Positions 39,147 through 48,537 of a stretch of 64,000 nucleotides of DNA are shown piece after piece (the stretch's first letter is position 1; the number at the start of each line of letters is the position of its first letter). The DNA is from Mastigocoleus sp. MO_188.B34 (GTDB lineage: Bacteria; Cyanobacteriota; Cyanobacteriia; Cyanobacteriales; Nostocaceae). The DNA is taken from contig NZ_JASJDK010000005.1 in NCBI RefSeq assembly GCF_030065675.1, forward strand, positions 1 to 64,000, read 5' to 3'. A program made the translations under genes and the position numbers. The notes under the pieces are model-generated. The model was given only the letters and a program-made list of their open reading frames with translations, searched no databases and had not been told where the DNA came from.

Positions 39147-40235
39147 ATGCAGTCAAGCAGTAAATTGCCACGATGGTTAACTTTAGGATTGGCGATTCCT
39201 ATAGTGATTCTCAATGGTTGGGTATTACTTCAATTTGTTCGTTACTTTCAACCTTTGGTAAGTATTTTTATCGCTGCTAGCGTGCTGGCTTTTGTGTTAG
39301 ATTATCCAATTCGGTTTTTACAGGGACGTGGGGTTCAAAGAACTTTTGCGACTATTGTTGTGTTAGTGGTGAGTCTAGTAATCTTAGCTGCGATCGCAAC
39401 TACCTTAGTTCCCAGAATTGTCGAACAACTTAACGAGTTAGCCAATATTCTACCTGTTTGGATTGATTCCGGAAATAAACAATTACAAGCCTTCCAAGAT
39501 TGGGCTTCGACCCAACAATTTCAGGCAAATTTTAGTCAATTAGCTACAACAATTTTAGATAAATTATCAAGTCAATTGCAAAATTTCAGTGGTAAACTGT
39601 TCGGTTTTGCCGTTGACACTATTGGCAGTATTGTCAATATTTTACTTACTATAGTACTAACGTTTTATTTAATTTTAAATGGAGAACGGGTTTGGGATGG
39701 AATTTTCCTTTGGTTCCCGGCGTATGTAGGAAAAGAAGTAAGGGAGTCCTTACGTGAGGATTTTCAAAATTACTTTATTGGACAGGTAACTTTAGCAACT
39801 TTATTGGGAGTGTTGATTACATTGGTTTTTCTCGCCCTTAAAGTTCCTCTAAGTTTGTTGTTTGGTTTAGTAATTGGTTTTTATGCTTTATTCCCTTTTG
39901 GTACAGGTATAGGGATTATTATAGTTAGCTTATTAGTGGCATTAAATGACTTTGGTTTGGGTCTAGAAGTTTTAGCGATCGCTGTGGGAATTGACCAATT
40001 TAATTATAATTTTATTGCTCCTAGAATTCTAAGTAAATTTACTGGTTTGAATCCTGTTTGGGTAGTAATTTCTTTGTGGGTTGGTGCGAAATTATTGGGA
40101 GTTTTAGGGTTATTAATTGCAATACCGTTAGCTAGTTTTATCAAGAGTATTGCTGACAGTTTGCGTGAAGGAAGATTTTTAGAATTAGAGAATATTGATG
40201 CAGAAACCGTTGATGTTGGGGCTAAAGCCGTTTGA
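39147..40235 (+). CDS. AI-2E family transporter (PerM-like)
   Basis: A 362-aa membrane protein with about eight hydrophobic segments. Start set at ATG 39147 (MQSSSKLPRWLTLG); TTG 39138 is an alternative. Family blocks: VLDYPIRFLQGRGVQRTFAT, the coiled soluble loop (about 80-150), then ILLTIVLTFYLILNGERVWD and LIGFYALFPFGTGIGI-type segments and FIAPRILSKFTGLNPVWVVI. Members are putative permeases (some export autoinducer-2 or ions). Repeats of the AAGTAAC type begin directly past the stop. Confidence 0.9.
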   Translation: MQSSSKLPRWLTLGLAIPIVILNGWVLLQFVRYFQPLVSIFIAASVLAFVLDYPIRFLQGRGVQRTFATIVVLVVSLVILAAIATTLVPRIVEQLNELANILPVWIDSGNKQLQAFQDWASTQQFQANFSQLATTILDKLSSQLQNFSGKLFGFAVDTIGSIVNILLTIVLTFYLILNGERVWDGIFLWFPAYVGKEVRESLREDFQNYFIGQVTLATLLGVLITLVFLALKVPLSLLFGLVIGFYALFPFGTGIGIIIVSLLVALNDFGLGLEVLAIAVGIDQFNYNFIAPRILSKFTGLNPVWVVISLWVGAKLLGVLGLLIAIPLASFIKSIADSLREGRFLELENIDAETVDVGAKAV

Positions 40236-40310
40236 TGAGTAACAAGTAACAAGTAATGAGTAATGAGAAGTCGTAGAGACGCGCCATGGCGCGTCTCTAC
40301 AGGAGTCAGG
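40236..40310 (+). repeat. STRR array plus 28-bp palindrome
   Basis: GAGTAACAAGTAACAAGTAATG repeat units run directly from the AI-2E stop. Within it, 40273-40300 is a perfect palindrome: GTAGAGACGCGCCA followed by its reverse complement. Confidence 0.9.
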
Positions 40311-40342
40311 AATTAAGAGTTTAAAAAATTACCCATTACCAA

Positions 40343-40381
40343 TTCCCCAAGGACTTGATAAATTATCCTTGGGGATTTTAT
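40343..40381 (+). terminator. Terminator of the AI-2E transporter gene
   Basis: TTCCCCAAGGA and TCCTTGGGGA form an 11-bp stem with a 12-base loop, then ATTTTATTTT. It ends only about 25 bases before the helicase reading frame. Confidence 0.88.
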
Positions 40382-40404
40382 TTTGCGGAATTTAAATATA
40401 AATT

Positions 40405-42399
40405 ATGTATTTATTATCTGCAAATAAAAATCTCTGTTATCAAAACCTAAATATGGCACAAATGATTCCGGATCGGCTTCCTACCCGCGCTTCTGCTGGT
40501 GAAAAGAAGTTATTTTCAGTGCTACAAAAACTAGGAGACGATTGCATCGTTTACTATGAACCCATAGTTGAGGATCGCTATCCTGATTTTATTGTTATCT
40601 CTCCAGATATGGGATTATTGGTTATTGAGGTCAAGGGCTGGTATCCCAGGGATATTCGTGCGGGCGATCTTAATTCTATTTGCGTCAAGGAAGCTCACGG
40701 AGAAGTTTACCGCAATCATCCTGTGAGACAAGCACGAGATTACATGTATTCCTTGATGGATAAGTGTAGGGAGCATTATCACGGTAAACGTTTACTGCAA
40801 AAGGAAGGAAAACATCAAAACAAGTTTATTTTTCCCTTCGGACATTTTGCTGTTCTTTCTAATATTACTCAAAGTCAATTACAACAGCATGATATTGGCG
40901 ACTTAACTGAAGTTTTTCCGCCAAACAAAGTTGTTCCTCGCGATGTTCTTGAGTCTTGGATGGATGATTCCTTTGGTTGTGAGGATCTGTGTGAGGTAAT
41001 TAAAACATTTTTTAACCCCTATTGGGATTTTCCCAGATTAAATCAAAATCAAATTAATGCAATTAGGGCAATTATCCACCCAGAGATTATAATATCTTCG
41101 GTAGGAAAAAATTCGGCTTCACCTCAAAAACAGGATAAAAAGTCAGCCCTAAAAGCATCAAATCCAGAAACATCAAAAGAATTTGAACCTGTAGACTTAA
41201 AAGTCCTTGACTTGCGTCAAGAGGATAATGCTCGAAAAATCGGTGAAGGACATCGAATTATATATGGTGTAGCAGGTTCCGGTAAAACTATCTTGTTGAT
41301 TGCAAAAGCACGCTTACTAAGTCACCAACGACCAGATGCGCAAATTCTTTTACTTTGCTATAACGTCACTCTTGCAACTTATTTACGTGAAATACTGCGC
41401 GAATGTCCAAATGTAAATGTTCGTCATTTTGACGGATGGAGTAAGGCTAATGGTTGTACGCGTCACAGAGAAGAATCTAACGAAAAACTTGGCGTTCGCT
41501 TCTTGAGTACATTGGAAAATGGTTGTCCTGATACCCGTTACTACGATGCTGTACTAATTGATGAAGCCCAAGATTTTGCAGTTTCTTGGTTTAAATGCGT
41601 CCTTGAAGCAATGCAAGAACCAAATGATGGGGATTTGGTAATTGTTGGTGATGGTAGTCAAGGTTTATATGGATCTACCAAAATTAGCTGGAAAAAAATT
41701 GGAATTAACGCTCGGGGTAGAACTATTTCAGCTAAATTTGACCTAGATAAAAATTATCGTAATAGTCGCGAGATTGTTGAACTTGCTGCGGTTTTCGCCG
41801 GAAATTCAGAGAATAAGGAACAAACTGAAGATTCTATACTTTCCTTATTCGTCGATCCAGCCAAGTGTCAGCGTCCTACTGGTATTAGACCCGTACTAGT
41901 AACATCAGAGGATCGCCGTTCTGAATCAACCAAGGTCATGGGTATTGTCAAAGCTTTATTAGATGGTAAATGGTTCGGCAAATCAATTAAACCACTAAAG
42001 CCAGAAGAAATTGCCATTTTATACCCAATGGCTCCTCAGAAAGAAAGGGCGATTCTGAAAGATTTAATACAAGGTTTAGGTCAACTTGCTCCGGTTGTTT
42101 GGCTGAATAAAGATTCCTTTGCTAGGACTTTAGTTGCTGAACCAGGTATTAAAATTCAGACCGTGCATTCAGCTAAGGGTTTGCAATACCGTGCTGTAAT
42201 TCTAATGTGGGCAGACCAATTACCGCGACCATTTGAAAATATCAATGAAGCTGAAGAACGATGTCTAATGTATGTTGGTGTGACTCGTCCGGAAGATTAT
42301 TTGGTTATTAGTGCTTCTGGTTTTTCTCCCTTTATTCGAGAAATAAAAGAGTCAGGAAAGGCTGATTTGATTCGCGAGCGAGTGTTGAGTTTCAGATGA
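40405..42399 (+). CDS. NERD-domain UvrD/REP-like helicase
   Basis: A 664-aa protein; ATG 40453 (MAQMIPDRLPTRASAGEKKL) is an equally likely start. An N-terminal NERD nuclease-related domain has PDFIVISPDMGLLVIEVKGW, with Asp61, Glu75 and Lys77 of the nuclease core. The helicase part has Walker A GVAGSGKT (288-295), DEAQDF (motif II), NYRNS, HSAKGLQYRAV (motif V) and YVGVTRPED (motif VI), all of the superfamily 1 type. It may act in DNA repair or defence. A NERD-less paralogue follows directly (42644). A terminator hairpin lies downstream. Confidence 0.9.
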   Translation: MYLLSANKNLCYQNLNMAQMIPDRLPTRASAGEKKLFSVLQKLGDDCIVYYEPIVEDRYPDFIVISPDMGLLVIEVKGWYPRDIRAGDLNSICVKEAHGEVYRNHPVRQARDYMYSLMDKCREHYHGKRLLQKEGKHQNKFIFPFGHFAVLSNITQSQLQQHDIGDLTEVFPPNKVVPRDVLESWMDDSFGCEDLCEVIKTFFNPYWDFPRLNQNQINAIRAIIHPEIIISSVGKNSASPQKQDKKSALKASNPETSKEFEPVDLKVLDLRQEDNARKIGEGHRIIYGVAGSGKTILLIAKARLLSHQRPDAQILLLCYNVTLATYLREILRECPNVNVRHFDGWSKANGCTRHREESNEKLGVRFLSTLENGCPDTRYYDAVLIDEAQDFAVSWFKCVLEAMQEPNDGDLVIVGDGSQGLYGSTKISWKKIGINARGRTISAKFDLDKNYRNSREIVELAAVFAGNSENKEQTEDSILSLFVDPAKCQRPTGIRPVLVTSEDRRSESTKVMGIVKALLDGKWFGKSIKPLKPEEIAILYPMAPQKERAILKDLIQGLGQLAPVVWLNKDSFARTLVAEPGIKIQTVHSAKGLQYRAVILMWADQLPRPFENINEAEERCLMYVGVTRPEDYLVISASGFSPFIREIKESGKADLIRERVLSFR

Positions 42400-42416
42400 G
42401 ACTTTCATGTCATTTT

Positions 42417-42460
42417 AATTAATATCCCCATAAGTAAAAACTAGGGGGTATTTAATTACT
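42417..42460 (+). terminator. Terminator of the first helicase gene
   Basis: AATTAATATCCCC against GGGGGTATTTAATT with a 14-base loop, followed by ACTTTTTAC. About 18 bases past the stop. Confidence 0.7.
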
Positions 42461-42568
42461 TTTTACCACTTACTCTACTGGTTTTTCCTAAGCAAAGTAG
42501 AATTGGCAATTTTCTAAACATGATTTTTCCATGACAATAAAATTGAGGAAAATCAACTTTTAAATGCC

Positions 42569-42635
42569 TTTTTTACGGAATTTGAATTATGAATCATGTA
42601 TTTAATCTCTGCAAAATAAAAATCTCTGATAAAGG
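42569..42635 (+). pseudogene. Remnant of the paralogue's old start region
   Basis: This stretch is about 80% identical to 40378-40442, which contains the start of the first helicase gene. ATG at 42596 opens MYLISAK and then TAA (42617), where the upstream copy continues MYLLSANKNL. It shows that the duplication once included this start; the second gene now uses ATG 42644. Confidence 0.75.
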
Positions 42636-42643
42636 CTTCTCTC

Positions 42644-43840
42644 ATGCAAACAACCTTAAATGAACTGGATTCCCACCAAGAAATAAATGCTAGTAAAATA
42701 GGCAATGGACACCGGATCATATATGGTATTGCTGGTTCGGGGAAAACTGTTTTACTAATTGCTAGAGCGCGTTTGCTGAGCAAACAAAAGCCCAATATAA
42801 AAATTCTCGTGCTTTGCTATAACGTTGTTTTAGCAACTTATTTACGCAAAAATCTTCGCGACTGTCTAAATGTGACTGTACGACATTTTGACAGTTGGAG
42901 CAAAGCTAATGGTTATGAGCTTAAGCGCGAAAAAAATGAGTCTAACGAAGACCTTGGTGCTCGTTTCTTAGACAAGCTGAGAAATGGTTGTTATGATACC
43001 CGTCGTTATGATGCTGTCTTGATTGACGAAGCTCAAGATTTTGATGTTTCCTGGTTTAAGTGTGTCCTTGAAGCCATGAAGGACCCCAAGCATGGGGATT
43101 TAGTAATTGTTGCTGATGGTAGTCAGGGCTTGTATAAGTCTCGTAAAATCAGTTGGAAACAAATAGGAATTAAAGCCCAGGGTAGGACTATTTCCAAAAA
43201 CTTTGGTTTGAATAAGAATTATCGTAATAGCGGTCCAATAGTCGAGCTTGCAGCCATATTTGCCAGAAATTCAGAAGCTGAGCAACAAACAGAAGACTCT
43301 ATACGCGCTTTATTTGTAGATCCATCAAAGTGTCAGCGTCCCCATGGTATGAAACCTGTATTAGTTGAATCATACAATCGGGAAGCTGAATGTACTAAGG
43401 TGATGAATATCGCGATAAATTTGCTTCAAGGTAACTGGTTTGGGAAATCAATCCCATCACTAAAACCAGAGGAAATTGCTATTTTATATCCAATGGCTTC
43501 TTCAAGAGAAAAAGTCAATCTGAAAGGTTTAATACAAGGCTTAGGTAAATTTGCTCCTGTTGTTTGGTTGAATGAATCTCCAGCATCTAGAGAGTTAGTC
43601 ACTAAGCCAGGTATTAAAATTCAGACTGTACATTCTGCTAAGGGTTTGCAATATCGTGCTGTAATTTTAATGTGGGCAGATCTATTACCACGACCTTTTT
43701 CAGATACCAATGAAGCTGAAGAACGATGCGTAATGTATGTTGGTATGACTCGTCCGGAGGATTATCTAGTTATTAGTTCTTCTGATTTTTCTCCGTTTAT
43801 TCAAGAAATTAAGGTATCGGGAAAAGCTCATTTGATTTAG
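42644..43840 (+). CDS. UvrD-like helicase paralogue lacking the NERD domain
   Basis: A 398-aa protein that aligns with residues from about 268 to the end of the upstream helicase over its whole length, at clearly high identity. All helicase motifs remain: GIAGSGKT, DEAQDF, NYRNSG, HSAKGLQYRAV, YVGMTRPED. The NERD nuclease domain and linker are gone. The start ATG follows only 9 bases after AAAGG. The C-terminus ends a few residues before the paralogue (KAHLI versus KADLIRERVLSFR). It could be an active helicase or translocase without nuclease, perhaps modulating its neighbour. Confidence 0.85.
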   Translation: MQTTLNELDSHQEINASKIGNGHRIIYGIAGSGKTVLLIARARLLSKQKPNIKILVLCYNVVLATYLRKNLRDCLNVTVRHFDSWSKANGYELKREKNESNEDLGARFLDKLRNGCYDTRRYDAVLIDEAQDFDVSWFKCVLEAMKDPKHGDLVIVADGSQGLYKSRKISWKQIGIKAQGRTISKNFGLNKNYRNSGPIVELAAIFARNSEAEQQTEDSIRALFVDPSKCQRPHGMKPVLVESYNREAECTKVMNIAINLLQGNWFGKSIPSLKPEEIAILYPMASSREKVNLKGLIQGLGKFAPVVWLNESPASRELVTKPGIKIQTVHSAKGLQYRAVILMWADLLPRPFSDTNEAEERCVMYVGMTRPEDYLVISSSDFSPFIQEIKVSGKAHLI

Positions 43841-44234
43841 CGATACAAACTGCAAAAATCTACTTTGGCGATCGCCTATTTTCTCGGCTAAGGTAATCAG
43901 TATTTTTGTTCCCTAGAAACACAGAATTTGCCATAACGCACCGACGTAACATGGTGCGTTAGACCTATTAAATTTATCATTACAGTCAGCTATAGTAATG
44001 GACATAACACACCTTACTGTAGTGGTTTGAACACAGGTCGCTGCAACCCTAGGAGTTCAAAATTTATGTTATTAATAAAACCCTCTTTACTCCTGACTCC
44101 TGAATCCTGTCTCCTAACTCCCAACTCTTAAATTCAAGTTACAAAAAATAAATAAACCTTGAGCAATTTTGGATCGTTACTCACATCGGGTTATCATCTT
44201 ATCTTGTCCGCTTGCCATCGATCGCACATAACCC
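43841..44234. other. Intergenic before mutS with an inverted repeat
   Basis: TAACGCACC at 43934 and GGTGCGTTA at 43953-43961 form an inverted repeat; related to the one at 27753. STRR-like TCCTGAATCCTGTCTCC words lie around 44090-44130. No gene. Confidence 0.65.
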
Positions 44235-46829
44235 ATGACCGCCTCTAAGTCAACCTCCAAACCCCTCGAATGTAAAAATTCCAATGAGCCGCCGATCTCC
44301 AATTATAAGGATGTGGATCGGAGTAAGCTCACTCAGATGTTTCAGCATTATGTGGATGTCAAAGCAGCTCATCCCCACGCGGTGTTATTGTATCGGGTGG
44401 GAGATTTTTTTGAGTGTTATTTTGATGATGCTGTCACCCTAGCTCAGGAATTAGAACTGGTTCTGACTAGCAAGTCAGTGGGAGATGTGGGCAGAATTGC
44501 AATGAGTGGTGTACCTCACCATGCTTGGGAACGTCATGCAACTTTGTTGGTAGAAAAAGGTTATGCGGTCGTAATTTGCGATCAAGTGCAAGATGCTTCG
44601 GAGGTATCCCCCGGTAAGTTAGTGCGTCGGGAAATAACACGCATTCTTACCCCCGGTACTTTGCTCGAAGATGGAATGTTGACTTCTAGTCGCAACAATT
44701 ATTTAGCAGCGGTTGTAATTGCTGGGAAACATTGGGGTTTGGCTTATGCAGATATCTCTACAGGGGAATTTCTCACCACCCAGGGAAGCGATTTAGAACA
44801 TCTAACTCAGGAATTAATGCGCTTACAACCGAGTGAAGTCTTATTTCCCACCAATGCGCCAAACTTAGGAATGTTATTACGTCCCGGTGAAAAGTCGGAC
44901 GACTTACCGGAATGTTTACCCCCTTCATTTTGTTATTCGCTGCGATCGCAAATTCCTTTTAGTCAGGGGGAAGCTAGAGCAAGGTTATTAAATAAATTTA
45001 AATTGCGTTCCTTAGAAGGAGTTGGTTGCGAACACCTAACTTTAGCCGTGCGGGCTGCAGGAGGGTTATTAGAGTATTTAGAGGAAACCCAAAAACACGA
45101 TTCTGTTCCCCTCCAACCATTGCGCACCTATACCCTGAATGATTTTTTGATTGTCGATCATCAAACCCGACGGAATTTGGAAATTACCCAAACCATTCGC
45201 GATGGTTCCTTTGCTGGTTCTTTATTATGGGCGATGGATCGAACCAGTACGGCGATGGGAAGTCGAGCTTTGCGTCGGTGGTTGTTACAACCATTATTGA
45301 AAGTTAAGGGTATCCAAGCGCGACAAGATACCGTCAGGGAATTACTAGAAGATACCACTCTACGTCAAGATTTGCGTTTGTTGCTCAAGCAAATTTACGA
45401 TTTGGAAAGATTGACTGGAAGAATCGGTTCCGGGACTGCAAATGCAAGGGATTTATCGGCTTTGGCTGATTCTTTGGCTCGGTTACCACAAATTGCTAAC
45501 TTGGTTTCTCAGACGAAATCGCCATTTTTGCAAGCTTTACAAGATGTACCGCCAATCTTAAAAGAATTAGGAGAAAAGATACAGGCTCATATCGTAGAAT
45601 CACCACCAATGCACATCAAAGAAGGTGGTTTAATTCGATCTGGAATCAATCCGCTTTTGGATGAAAGGCGGGGTATGGTGGAAGAAGACCAAAAATGGAT
45701 TGCTAATTTGGAGGTGGAACAGCGGGAAAAAACTGGAATCGCTAAACTCAAAGTCGGTTTTAATAAGACCTTTGGTTATTACATTAGCGTTTCTCGACTC
45801 TATGCTGACCAGGTTCCCAGTGATTATATTCGCAAACAAACCCTAACCAATGAAGAACGATACATTACACCAGAATTAAAGGAACGGGAAGCTCGCATCC
45901 TCACAGCACAGGACGACTTAAATAAGATAGAGTACGAAGTTTTTGTTGCTTTGCGGGATGAAGTCGCCAGCCACGCCGAAACAATTCGCAACATTTCCCG
46001 AGCGGTAGCAGCTGCAGATGTACTCTGTGGTTTAGCGGAATTGGCGGTTTACCAGGGTTACTGTTGTCCGGAAATGTTGGAAGGGCGAGAAATTTCCATT
46101 GTGGATGGACGACACCCGGTAGTAGAGCAATCCTTACCTGCTGGTTTTTTTGTTCCCAATTCTACTAATTTGGGAAGGAAAATGAAGCGGGAGGTAGAAA
46201 ACGAAAATAATGCTCCCGACTTGATAATTTTGACCGGACCCAACGCCAGTGGTAAAAGTTGTTATTTAAGACAGGTCGGATTAATCCAGTTAATGGCGCA
46301 GATTGGGAGTTTTATCCCGGCTAAATCTGCGAGATTGGGGATTTGCGATCGCATTTTTACCCGTGTTGGAGCGGTAGACGATCTAGCGACAGGTCAATCT
46401 ACCTTTATGGTGGAGATGAACGAAACTGCAAACATTCTCAACCATGCTACTTCCAGATCTTTAGTATTATTAGATGAAATTGGTCGGGGAACGGCGACCT
46501 TCGACGGGCTTTCCATTGCTTGGGCTGTGGCAGAATATATTGCAATGGATATTTGTGCGCGGACGATTTTTGCTACCCATTACCACGAGTTAAATCAATT
46601 AGCGTCGATTTTACCTAATGTGGCAAATTATCAGGTTACCGTGAAAGAAATGCCGGATAGCATCATCTTTTTACACCAAGTTCAACCGGGAGGGGCTGAT
46701 AAATCCTATGGAATTGAAGCGGGTAGGTTAGCTGGTTTACCAGCAACGGTAATTCAACGGGCTAAGCAGGTGATGGGACAAATTGAGGAGCACAGTAAAA
46801 TTGCTATGGGTTTGCAGAGTTTGGATTGA
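44235..46829 (+). CDS. mutS: DNA mismatch repair protein MutS
   Basis: An 864-aa protein. The mismatch-recognition Phe-x-Glu is in [14 protein letters not shown] (about residue 60), the ATPase Walker A is [15 protein letters not shown] (about 665), Walker [17 protein letters not shown], followed by [13 protein letters not shown]. All domains of the MutS family are in order. It recognises mismatches and starts repair with MutL. A repeat array of AAGTCAA units begins just after the stop. The N-terminus has an extra polar stretch of about 30 residues. Confidence 0.97.
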
Positions 46830-47225: not shown

Positions 47226-47465
47226 ATGCAATCGGCTTTACGTGTGACAACCAAAGTTTTACCAGGAAACAAAATCGAAATTCAAGTTCCAGAAGCTCAA
47301 ATCGGCGATAACGTTGATGTATTTGTGATTTTACCGGAGAAAGCTGAAACTAAAAAGCGTTCAGTGCTGGAAATTATAGAAGAAAGTCGCAAGAGACATC
47401 CTTCTCGAACTGCTGAGGAAATAGATAGACAACTGCAAGAAGAACGTTCGTCATGGGACAGCTAA
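47226..47465 (+). CDS. Probable antitoxin (VapB-type, partner of PIN toxin)
   Basis: A 79-aa protein. The first 45 residues look like a small beta-strand-rich fold (LRVTTKVLPGNKIEIQVPEA, then GDNVDVFVILPE), and the end is an acidic/basic helix (IEESRKRHPSRTAEEIDRQL). The gene overlaps the PIN-toxin gene by 13 bases, so they are co-translated; that context rather than a firm domain match makes antitoxin the best call. The DNA-binding part would autoregulate the operon. Ribosome site: GAGGG about 8 bases before ATG. Confidence 0.75.
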   Translation: MQSALRVTTKVLPGNKIEIQVPEAQIGDNVDVFVILPEKAETKKRSVLEIIEESRKRHPSRTAEEIDRQLQEERSSWDS

Positions 47466-47896
47466 TACTTCCATCCTCCAGCGCAATTTATGTAGATACT
47501 TCCGTGGTTATTTATACTATAGAAGGTAATCCCGACTATTATTCTTTGCTGGAACCACTGTGGTCTAAATTTTATGCGGGAGAAATTCAAATCATTAGCA
47601 GCGATCTAACGTTAATGGAGGTTTTGGTCGTTCCATTGCGTAATGGTAATAATGTTTTAGTCGCAGACTACGAAGAACTGTTATTATCATCTCAAGTCCA
47701 GCTAATTCCTATTAATCAATCAATATTGCGACAAGCTGCAAATCTCCGCGCAACAACTAGCTTGAAAACACCAGATGCGATTCATGCTGCAACAGCTTTA
47801 TCGGCTAGTTGCGATCAATTTATTACCAACGATAAAGGTTTTCGTAATGCTCCCGGTTTACTTGTTGTTATCCTCAGTGAAATATTAGCATCTTAA
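47453..47896 (+). CDS. PIN-domain ribonuclease toxin (VapC family)
   Basis: A 147-aa protein with a complete PIN-domain acidic set: Asp15 in IYVDTSVVI, Glu56 in TLMEVLV, Asp108 in KTPDAIHAA, and Asp127 in FITNDKGF. VapC-type toxins are Mg-dependent RNases that cut tRNA or rRNA when not blocked by the antitoxin. Its start lies inside the 3' end of the antitoxin gene, the usual order. Length is a little longer than many VapC proteins. Confidence 0.9.
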   Translation: MGQLILPSSSAIYVDTSVVIYTIEGNPDYYSLLEPLWSKFYAGEIQIISSDLTLMEVLVVPLRNGNNVLVADYEELLLSSQVQLIPINQSILRQAANLRATTSLKTPDAIHAATALSASCDQFITNDKGFRNAPGLLVVILSEILAS

Positions 47897-47967
47897 ATCT
47901 GGATAATGTGCCAAATTACCAGGTGAAATTATAGTCTGTGATCGAATAAAACATCACCACCAAACCC

Positions 47968-48537
47968 ATGTCTGTTCCTTTAACCCACCTCACTGTTGAC
48001 GAATACCTCGAAGCCGAAGAATCCAGTGAAATTCGTTATGAATATCTTGGGGGTCAAGTCTTCGCTATGTCTGGTGGTAGCAAAGAGCATAATTTGATTA
48101 CCCTCAATATTGCTAGTAGATTGCGTTCCCATGTACGGGGTGGTTCCTGCAGCGTTTTTATGTCTGACATGAAAGTAAAGCTTGAACTAGCAAATAAAGG
48201 CAAAAGCATATTTTACTATCCAGATGTCGTAGTCAGTTGCGACTCCGAAGACCAAGATCGCTTTTTCTTAAATTATCCCTGTTTAATAATAGAAGTACTA
48301 TCACCCAGCACAGAAACCACAGACAGACGAGAAAAACTTGTTAATTATCGAACTTTAAAAACCTTACAAGAGTATGTGTTAGTTTCCCAAGATGAGGTCA
48401 AAGTAGAAGTTTATCGTAAAGATGCTCAGGGAAACTGGTCATTAATCATTTTAGGCAAGGATGATGAGTTGCATTTAGATTCTATTGGAGCAACTTTAAC
48501 GATGTCAGAAATTTATGAAGATGTTATCAAAGTTTAA
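47968..48537 (+). CDS. Uma2 family endonuclease (DUF820)
   Basis: A 189-aa protein of the Uma2/DUF820 restriction-endonuclease-like fold that is highly expanded in cyanobacteria. The start LTVDEYLEAEESSEIRYEYL, the PDVVVSCD catalytic Asp (about 92), the LIIEVLSPSTETTDRREKL block with Glu as the second metal ligand, and the YVLVSQDEVKVEVY strand are typical. The biological role of the family is unknown. It follows the toxin gene by 71 bases in the same direction. Confidence 0.92.
   Translation: MSVPLTHLTVDEYLEAEESSEIRYEYLGGQVFAMSGGSKEHNLITLNIASRLRSHVRGGSCSVFMSDMKVKLELANKGKSIFYYPDVVVSCDSEDQDRFFLNYPCLIIEVLSPSTETTDRREKLVNYRTLKTLQEYVLVSQDEVKVEVYRKDAQGNWSLIILGKDDELHLDSIGATLTMSEIYEDVIKV

Follow-up and report, generated by a model that had tools for sequence, protein, structure and literature searches.

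A tandem duplicate of a NERD helicase in Mastigocoleus appears to have lost its nuclease domain and kept its helicase motor

Can a nuclease-helicase, once duplicated, shed its nuclease and persist as a motor beside its parent? The question is raised by two adjacent genes of the cyanobacterium Mastigocoleus sp. MO_188.B34, in the 64,000-nucleotide stretch analyzed here (the window; positions 1 to 64,000 of contig NZ_JASJDK010000005.1, assembly GCF_030065675.1). Copy 1, a 664-aa open reading frame (ORF) open from the ATG at 40405 (40405-42399, + strand), encodes a NERD domain and a UvrD-like superfamily 1 (SF1) helicase; copy 2 (42644-43840, + strand; 398 aa) is a NERD-less SF1 helicase ORF. The original prediction, made from the DNA letters, was that the second helicase aligns with the helicase part of the first and arose by tandem duplication. 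The alignment bears this out, with 73% (72.7%) identity between the proteins and 75.8% identity between the DNAs over 1,154 columns, and a search of the whole genome (7.48 Mb, 235 contigs) with copy 2 returned copies 1 and 2 as the sole matches at E ≤ 1e-5. We consider it probable, though by no means assured, that tandem duplication and loss of NERD have produced a functioning SF1 translocase that has no nuclease and is expressed together with its parent.

The domain content of the two proteins is clear. Copy 1 matches Pfam NERD at residues 30-124 (E 3.4e-8) and UvrD_C (E 2e-16). Copy 2 matches UvrD_C (E 6.6e-18) and gave no Pfam NERD match up to E = 1, in a search whose HMMER filters discard most matches above 0.1. 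The NERD domain of copy 1 contains, at residue 45 counting from the ATG at 40453, the core sequence DFIVISPDMGLLVIEVK, which we take to be a D-E-K-type motif. Helicase motifs were predicted to have been kept, and pattern searches of copy 2 detected what we take to be SF1 motifs Q, I, Ia, and II-VI; core motifs I-VI are present in both copies, and Walker A and Walker B are kept in copy 2, where motif III reads ADGSQ in place of GDGSQ. By alignment, the NERD domain and linker absent from copy 2 occupy 40453..41190 of copy 1 (+ strand; 3′ edge approximate). The N terminus of copy 2 falls just ahead of the invariant residues D9, Q12, and E13, which precede Walker A, so the truncation spared the whole motor.

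The duplication extends upstream of the coding sequence. The leader of copy 1 (40381-40439, + strand), a probable promoter or 5′ untranslated region, matches the leader of copy 2 (42571-42631, + strand) in 52 of 59 ungapped columns, plus two one-base gaps; these edges lie slightly inside those first proposed. The match is far above chance: blastn between the two segments gave E 5.6e-13, and the local-alignment score was 73, with 59 as the highest among 1,934 pairs of random windows. When a 71-nt leader query was run against the whole genome, the copy 1 leader was second-best (E 4e-11), with the next at 0.07 among the 15 places listed. Upstream of the leaders, the 100-nt segments aligned no better than background (score 13, against a random mean of 14.8). 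For the 3′ flanks of the copies the score was 22, against a 95th percentile of 19 and a maximum of 25 for random 100-nt pairs, the flanks compared being longer than these. The leaders are more alike (0.88 identity) than the fourfold-degenerate sites of the helicase (0.58, 71/123; p 4e-7), a sign that selection may act on the leader. A promoter scan (17 sites; 11.7 expected) found no + strand site common to both leaders, and for this reason we infer the role of the leader. On the − strand each leader holds a 9/12 match at equivalent positions (40424-40395 and 42615-42586), as would be expected from the similarity of the leaders. An Rfam scan of 40200-44240 gave no match. A possible ribosome-binding sequence, TAAAGG, precedes copy 2 at 42630-42635 (+ strand).

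One element of the original prediction was not supported, namely that the copied leader contains a dead start. The frame MYLISAK followed by TAA is indeed present in the copy 2 leader, from the ATG at 42596, and its TAA arises through one extra A within that stretch. The corresponding MYLLSANK of copy 1, however, probably does not begin the protein. Each of the four closest homologues (L174-L177) has an in-frame stop 2-4 sense codons ahead of an MAE start, and an MAxxxP signature stands near the N terminus in 30 of 34 more distant homologues (all except L008, L016, L031, and L045). Copy 1 likely starts at the ATG at 40453 (40453..42399, + strand; Pfam NERD/UvrD, PADLOC C3a187). From these homologues it follows that MYLLSANKNLCYQNLN, the MYLLSANK segment, is probably leader that happens to stay open for 17 sense codons, and that the TAA of copy 2 would disable nothing.

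The direction of the change was read from relatives. A search of the order found homologues at E ≤ 1e-30 in 40 of 291 genomes, the window's included, and outside the window genome at 40 places in 39 genomes; 29 loci of this search and 6 of a phylum search made up an alignment of 35 homologues. NERD is present in 34 of the 35, the remaining one being cut by a contig end, and all 34 complete homologues align with the NERD region of copy 1. In the tree, copy 2 groups with copy 1 and the orthologue from Mastigocoleus testarum (support 100/100), and two members of another, NERD-less helicase family fall on their own branch. Assignment of copy 2 to that known NERD-less family, from which it differs at 28% identity, was accordingly rejected. 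A family search (217 genomes, 17 with a match at 1e-50) was also made; closer relatives in G660, G661, G646, and G601, 60-63% identical to copy 2, align with copy 1 from its N terminus onward, and with these included copy 2 is sister to copy 1 plus M. testarum (97/98). DNA trees of the first 270 and the last 126 codons both hold copy 2 with the same pair (97 and 99). A phylum search with copy 1 matched 12 of 386 genomes at 1e-60, all of the window's family or order, and no new genome. Because NERD is present in every complete member of the clade within which copy 2 and copy 1 are sisters, we conclude from the trees that NERD loss in copy 2 is derived, as was predicted. The reverse order, with an ancestral NERD-less form and a later gain of NERD by copy 1, could appeal to the separate NERD-less family in the order; given the NERD alignment across complete relatives and the nesting of copy 2, we reject it as highly improbable.

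The age of the duplication was examined in M. testarum BC008 (L001, G291), of the same genus. Copy 1 is found there at the same place, with the copy 1 leader inside a 125-column stretch that is nearly identical between the species; copy 2 was not found. By blastn, the M. testarum DNA tracks the window up to 42556 and picks up again at 44107, so that 42557..44106 is without a counterpart at that place. A 2,096-bp segment stands there instead (L001 7360-9455), carrying an LptF/LptG-family gene (Pfam LptF_LptG) and a small ORF. These two lie at L001 7403-9213, and the LptF/LptG gene has 43% and 32% matches on other contigs of the window genome. The G291 assembly is marked 38% contaminated; its contig nonetheless runs through to mutS. 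Synonymous divergence (dS) is 0.92-1.27 between the copies and 0.17-0.19 between the two species' copy 1, so the copies diverged before the species split. On this sequence evidence the duplication is older than the M. testarum split, and the lack of copy 2 in M. testarum probably reflects a loss.

The same divergence could be explained by horizontal transfer, in which a diverged relative donated copy 2 and the gene inserted next to copy 1. The distance between the copies is far above that between the species, the 42557-44106 segment is the part that M. testarum lacks, the family is patchy (the 40 of 291 order genomes above, and 27 records of a plasmid collection), and copy 1 is nearly as similar to a G660 protein (71.7%) as to copy 2 (72.7%). 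We nevertheless regard transfer as unlikely: among all sequences searched, the nearest relatives of copy 2 are the window and M. testarum copy 1 (73% and 72%; next, 60-63%), its position, orientation, and leader suit a tandem copy, and a synonymous gradient shared with both species' copy 1 points to exchange within one genome. That gradient is a lower synonymous divergence in the last third of the aligned region (window 41227-42372 versus 42686-43837). The share of identical codons among same-residue codons rises from 100/183 (0.55) to 68/93 (0.73) between copy 1 and copy 2 (Fisher, 0.004) and from 103/180 (0.57) to 70/91 (0.77) between M. testarum copy 1 and copy 2 (Fisher, 0.0014), at a 270-codon split that was picked after viewing the profile. 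Permutations that maximize over splits gave 7/300 for the window copies and 3/300 for M. testarum copy 1 versus copy 2. Nine other pairs showed no significant change; the nearest (L174-L176) went in the opposite direction, with p 0.065. The signal is moderate and fits partial gene conversion of one copy by the other prior to the species split, and with that their co-residence in one genome. Recent conversion, after the split, is not supported, since copy 2 is no more distant from M. testarum copy 1 than from window copy 1.

If duplication and domain loss are old, has copy 2 been maintained? Its 398 codons contain no stop or frameshift despite dS near 1. The pairwise ratio of nonsynonymous to synonymous divergence (dN/dS) is 0.195 by NG86 (bootstrap, 0.140-0.261) and 0.134 by the Biopython maximum-likelihood method, a constraint that does not show the role of the protein. 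In a seven-sequence tree, our own codon likelihood, run without a PAML cross-check, gave an omega of 0.25 on the copy 2 branch against a background of 0.085 (twice the log-likelihood difference, 15.4) and rejected omega = 1 for that branch (11.75). Of 49 residues invariant in 34 relatives, 43 are kept in copy 2, and 43 in copy 1; with the motifs retained as well, the extra changes in copy 2 must lie mostly at positions variable in the family. Copy 2 looks functional and under selection. It could instead be a decaying truncated duplicate heading for the loss already seen in M. testarum, and its faster evolution, its raised omega, and the existence of truncated homologues, such as those of G126 and G225, in which homology begins inside the helicase and which both look broken, are in keeping with this. 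The intact frame, an omega well below 1, the invariant residues kept as in copy 1, and a cut that spared D9, Q12, and E13 make decay a rather unlikely explanation.

Several points weigh against a maintained partner. Copy 2 has 40-53 unique amino acid changes against 13-15 in copy 1, depending on the outgroup, and its omega is up about threefold; closer outgroups show it to be faster than copy 1, while with distant outgroups it is little or no faster (off-majority columns, 6 versus 8 for copy 1; tree, 0.22 versus 0.16). Some residual probability thus stays with a gene that began decaying late. The tree software (treekit) marks copy 2 as a long branch, and the collections searched yielded a single copy 2 sequence. 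M. testarum manages without this gene. The excess of leader identity falls to p 0.004 when 15 points are allowed above the fourfold value for alignment choice. The two pairs with a significant codon gradient, besides the choice of split, are not independent of each other. Joint action of copy 2 with copy 1 is something we only infer.

We asked whether the same pair recurs. Adjacent matches at 1e-50 were found in 1 of 217 family genomes, that of the window; G660 has two matches on different contigs. The surroundings of all 40 places outside the window genome were examined, several of them shortened by contig ends (five to 3.2-4.6 kb), and at none of them does the NERD-helicase adjoin another member of its own subfamily. 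Three of the 40 (G035, G181, and G265) have the other kind of NERD-less SF1 helicase as a same-strand neighbor of the NERD-helicase, at a distance of about 0.1 kb in two of them and 1.7 kb in G181; the 28% identity to copy 2 was measured in G035 and G265. These three pairs lie within a cassette with a deoxynucleoside kinase and viperin in genomes of the window's family (L115 2944-7825, L117 6332-11146, and L118 6551-11388), a cassette annotated on plasmid pn2 of Nostoc sp. UHCC 0926 (L170). The separate NERD-less family occurs in 23 of 291 order genomes (E ≤ 1e-60), and its other 20 loci showed no ORF matching our own NERD profile, no viperin, and no deoxynucleoside kinase. Two further plasmids (L201 and L202) carry kinase, viperin, and NERD-less helicase in incomplete cassettes. 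On a Sphaerospermopsis NIES-73 plasmid the NERD-helicase is reduced to residues 2-67 beside viperin (86% identical), and on pNsp_a of Nostoc ATCC 53789 the NERD-less helicase is cut after 195 residues and adjoins a transposase gene. A second, independent NERD loss is seen on contig 23 of G660 (L190 6344-8710), where about 50 N-terminal codons are left in another frame adjoining an open 426-aa helicase frame, and a stand-alone 296-aa NERD protein lies immediately upstream on the same strand. Searches of open-access literature on NERD with helicases, UvrD, defense, and viperin, and on nuclease-domain loss in paralogues, brought up no title or abstract opening that concerned a NERD-less tandem paralogue.

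The company kept by relatives bears on what the pair may do. Relatives are found near type III-B CRISPR genes (one, its NERD confirmed), near viperin, and near a NACHT-HEAT protein, as well as in the plasmid records. Viral contigs yielded six relatives, all six with a Pfam NERD match; phage records gave weak partial matches only, in 4 records, none covering 80% of the query. NERD is listed for the Mokosh type I and Nhi-like defense systems in a review's domain table (PMC10952713) and is counted among restriction-type nucleases in defense loci (PMC10853773). From this defense association and these neighbors, copy 1 may handle foreign or damaged DNA. No CRISPR, viperin, or NACHT neighbor was found at the window locus among the genes tested.

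The sequence of events that we favor is as follows. A NERD-helicase gene with its leader would have been duplicated in tandem in the Mastigocoleus lineage, and the second copy would then have lost the NERD and linker codons (about 740 nt), keeping the leader, a new start, and the complete SF1 motor core. Its predicted product would be an ATP-driven single-strand DNA translocase or helicase unable to cut, whose expression the copied leader would place under the control that also governs copy 1. It may serve the process in which copy 1 acts, probably one dealing with foreign or damaged DNA, either as a motor without nuclease or by modulating copy 1. A narrower role is conceivable, in which copy 2 competes for the same DNA or dimer interface and limits the copy 1 nuclease as a built-in brake. 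The shared core and leader and the missing nuclease would suit such a competitor; Walker A and Walker B, needless for a pure decoy, are kept, and we think this role improbable, if worth bearing in mind.

A partner motor of the kind we favor would amount to a clean experiment set up by nature, in which adjacent genes behind the same leader encode one motor in an armed and a nuclease-free version, the unarmed form apparently still selected. Comparing the copies would show the role of the motor apart from cutting, in a poorly characterized family, and the locus is a modest but real example of defense-type enzymes being rebuilt. We put forward, as a speculation with the chances against it, that NERD-armed SF1 helicases have repeatedly been paired with nuclease-free ones in a two-motor design like the RecBCD/AddAB machines. 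Independent routes to it would be duplication and domain loss here, recruitment of a separate family in the viperin cassettes, and possibly the splitting of NERD from helicase on contig 23 of G660. If the pairing is recurrent, it suggests that these helicases work as two-motor machines.

Other features of the locus and of related loci can be noted briefly. By Pfam the flanking genes are unremarkable, with NUDIX and AI-2E transporter genes upstream and mutS downstream. A mutS match was found in 38 of 40 family genomes, and the interval from AI-2E to mutS in relatives was uninformative. Among 29 listed loci besides the window's, with flanks of about 1.5 kb, in L069 (G544) an AI-2E gene (43%) lies immediately upstream and the 14-kb stretch contains no helicase, and L077 has a NUDIX fragment at its edge. 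Elsewhere in the window, at 47226-48537, a short ORF overlaps a PIN-domain gene and is followed by a Uma2-family gene, presumably a toxin-antitoxin-like arrangement. In G012, a distant second NERD+UvrD protein (L090 10932-12923; NERD E 2.7e-6) lies about 3 kb from the NERD-helicase on the opposite strand; in G661, a different, 739-aa NERD+UvrD helicase (L187 3537-5756) lies about 0.9 kb from the close homologue, again on the opposite strand. In G660, the NACHT-HEAT repeat protein beside the close homologue is at L186 9554-12916. Two close relatives have, upstream of the NERD-helicase and facing away from it, a protein of about 215 aa (L187 8961-9602 and L188 4609-5265; 39% identical), which had no Pfam match and was not found in the window by tblastn.

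Copy 2 was finally compared with known systems, with the help of a structure model. A first model built from three close sequences was poor (predicted local distance difference test [pLDDT] score, 45.2) and was not used; an AlphaFold2 model from six sequences gave a pLDDT of 69.7 and a predicted template modeling score (pTM) of 0.66. Residues 6-396 of the latter align to UvrD with a Z score of 24.9 and a root mean square deviation (rmsd) of 5.7 Å over 344 residues. Copy 2 shares its fold and motifs with the UvrD/PcrA/Rep SF1A helicases and has sequence matches to PcrA and UvrD; those proteins, however, are about 650-720 aa long against 398 aa, and copy 2 falls far under the NCBIfam cutoffs (46.5 bits versus 1144 for uvrD, 42.2 versus 911 for pcrA, and 39.7 versus 951 for rep). 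The top Foldseek match was SLFN11 (E 7e-12), whose Schlafen helicase domain superposes with a Z score of 21.8 and an rmsd of 3.9 Å over 294 residues, alongside a weak Pfam SLFN-g3 match; that domain is part of a 900-residue human protein, and at 14-17% identity only the fold is in common. HelD likewise has an SF1 motor and gave a profile match (model Z score of 18.8; rmsd of 4.5 Å over 329 residues); the NCBIfam cutoff for HelD was not reached. GajB of Gabija has the same kind of motor, with PADLOC and Protein Data Bank sequence matches, but no GajA-like gene was found by Pfam among the immediate neighbors tested (NUDIX, AI-2E transporter, MutS). The stand-alone NERD-less SF1 helicases of about 410 aa, of the G265/Nostoc sp. 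UHCC 0926 type, resemble copy 2 in length, SF1 core, and lack of NERD, but they form a separate branch, and their three pairs sit in viperin cassettes. NERD+UvrD proteins on some plasmids are annotated as "nuclease-related domain-containing DEAD/DEAH box helicase." Copy 1 spans the whole NERD+UvrD model of PADLOC (C3a187), with residues 21-646 on positions 5-552 of 559 (E 4.7e-81), whereas copy 2 matches the helicase part, 194-550 (E 2e-51), without the NERD part and linker. Because it is without the N-terminal NERD, copy 2 is, as judged from its sequence, a derived paralogue of this system rather than a full member.

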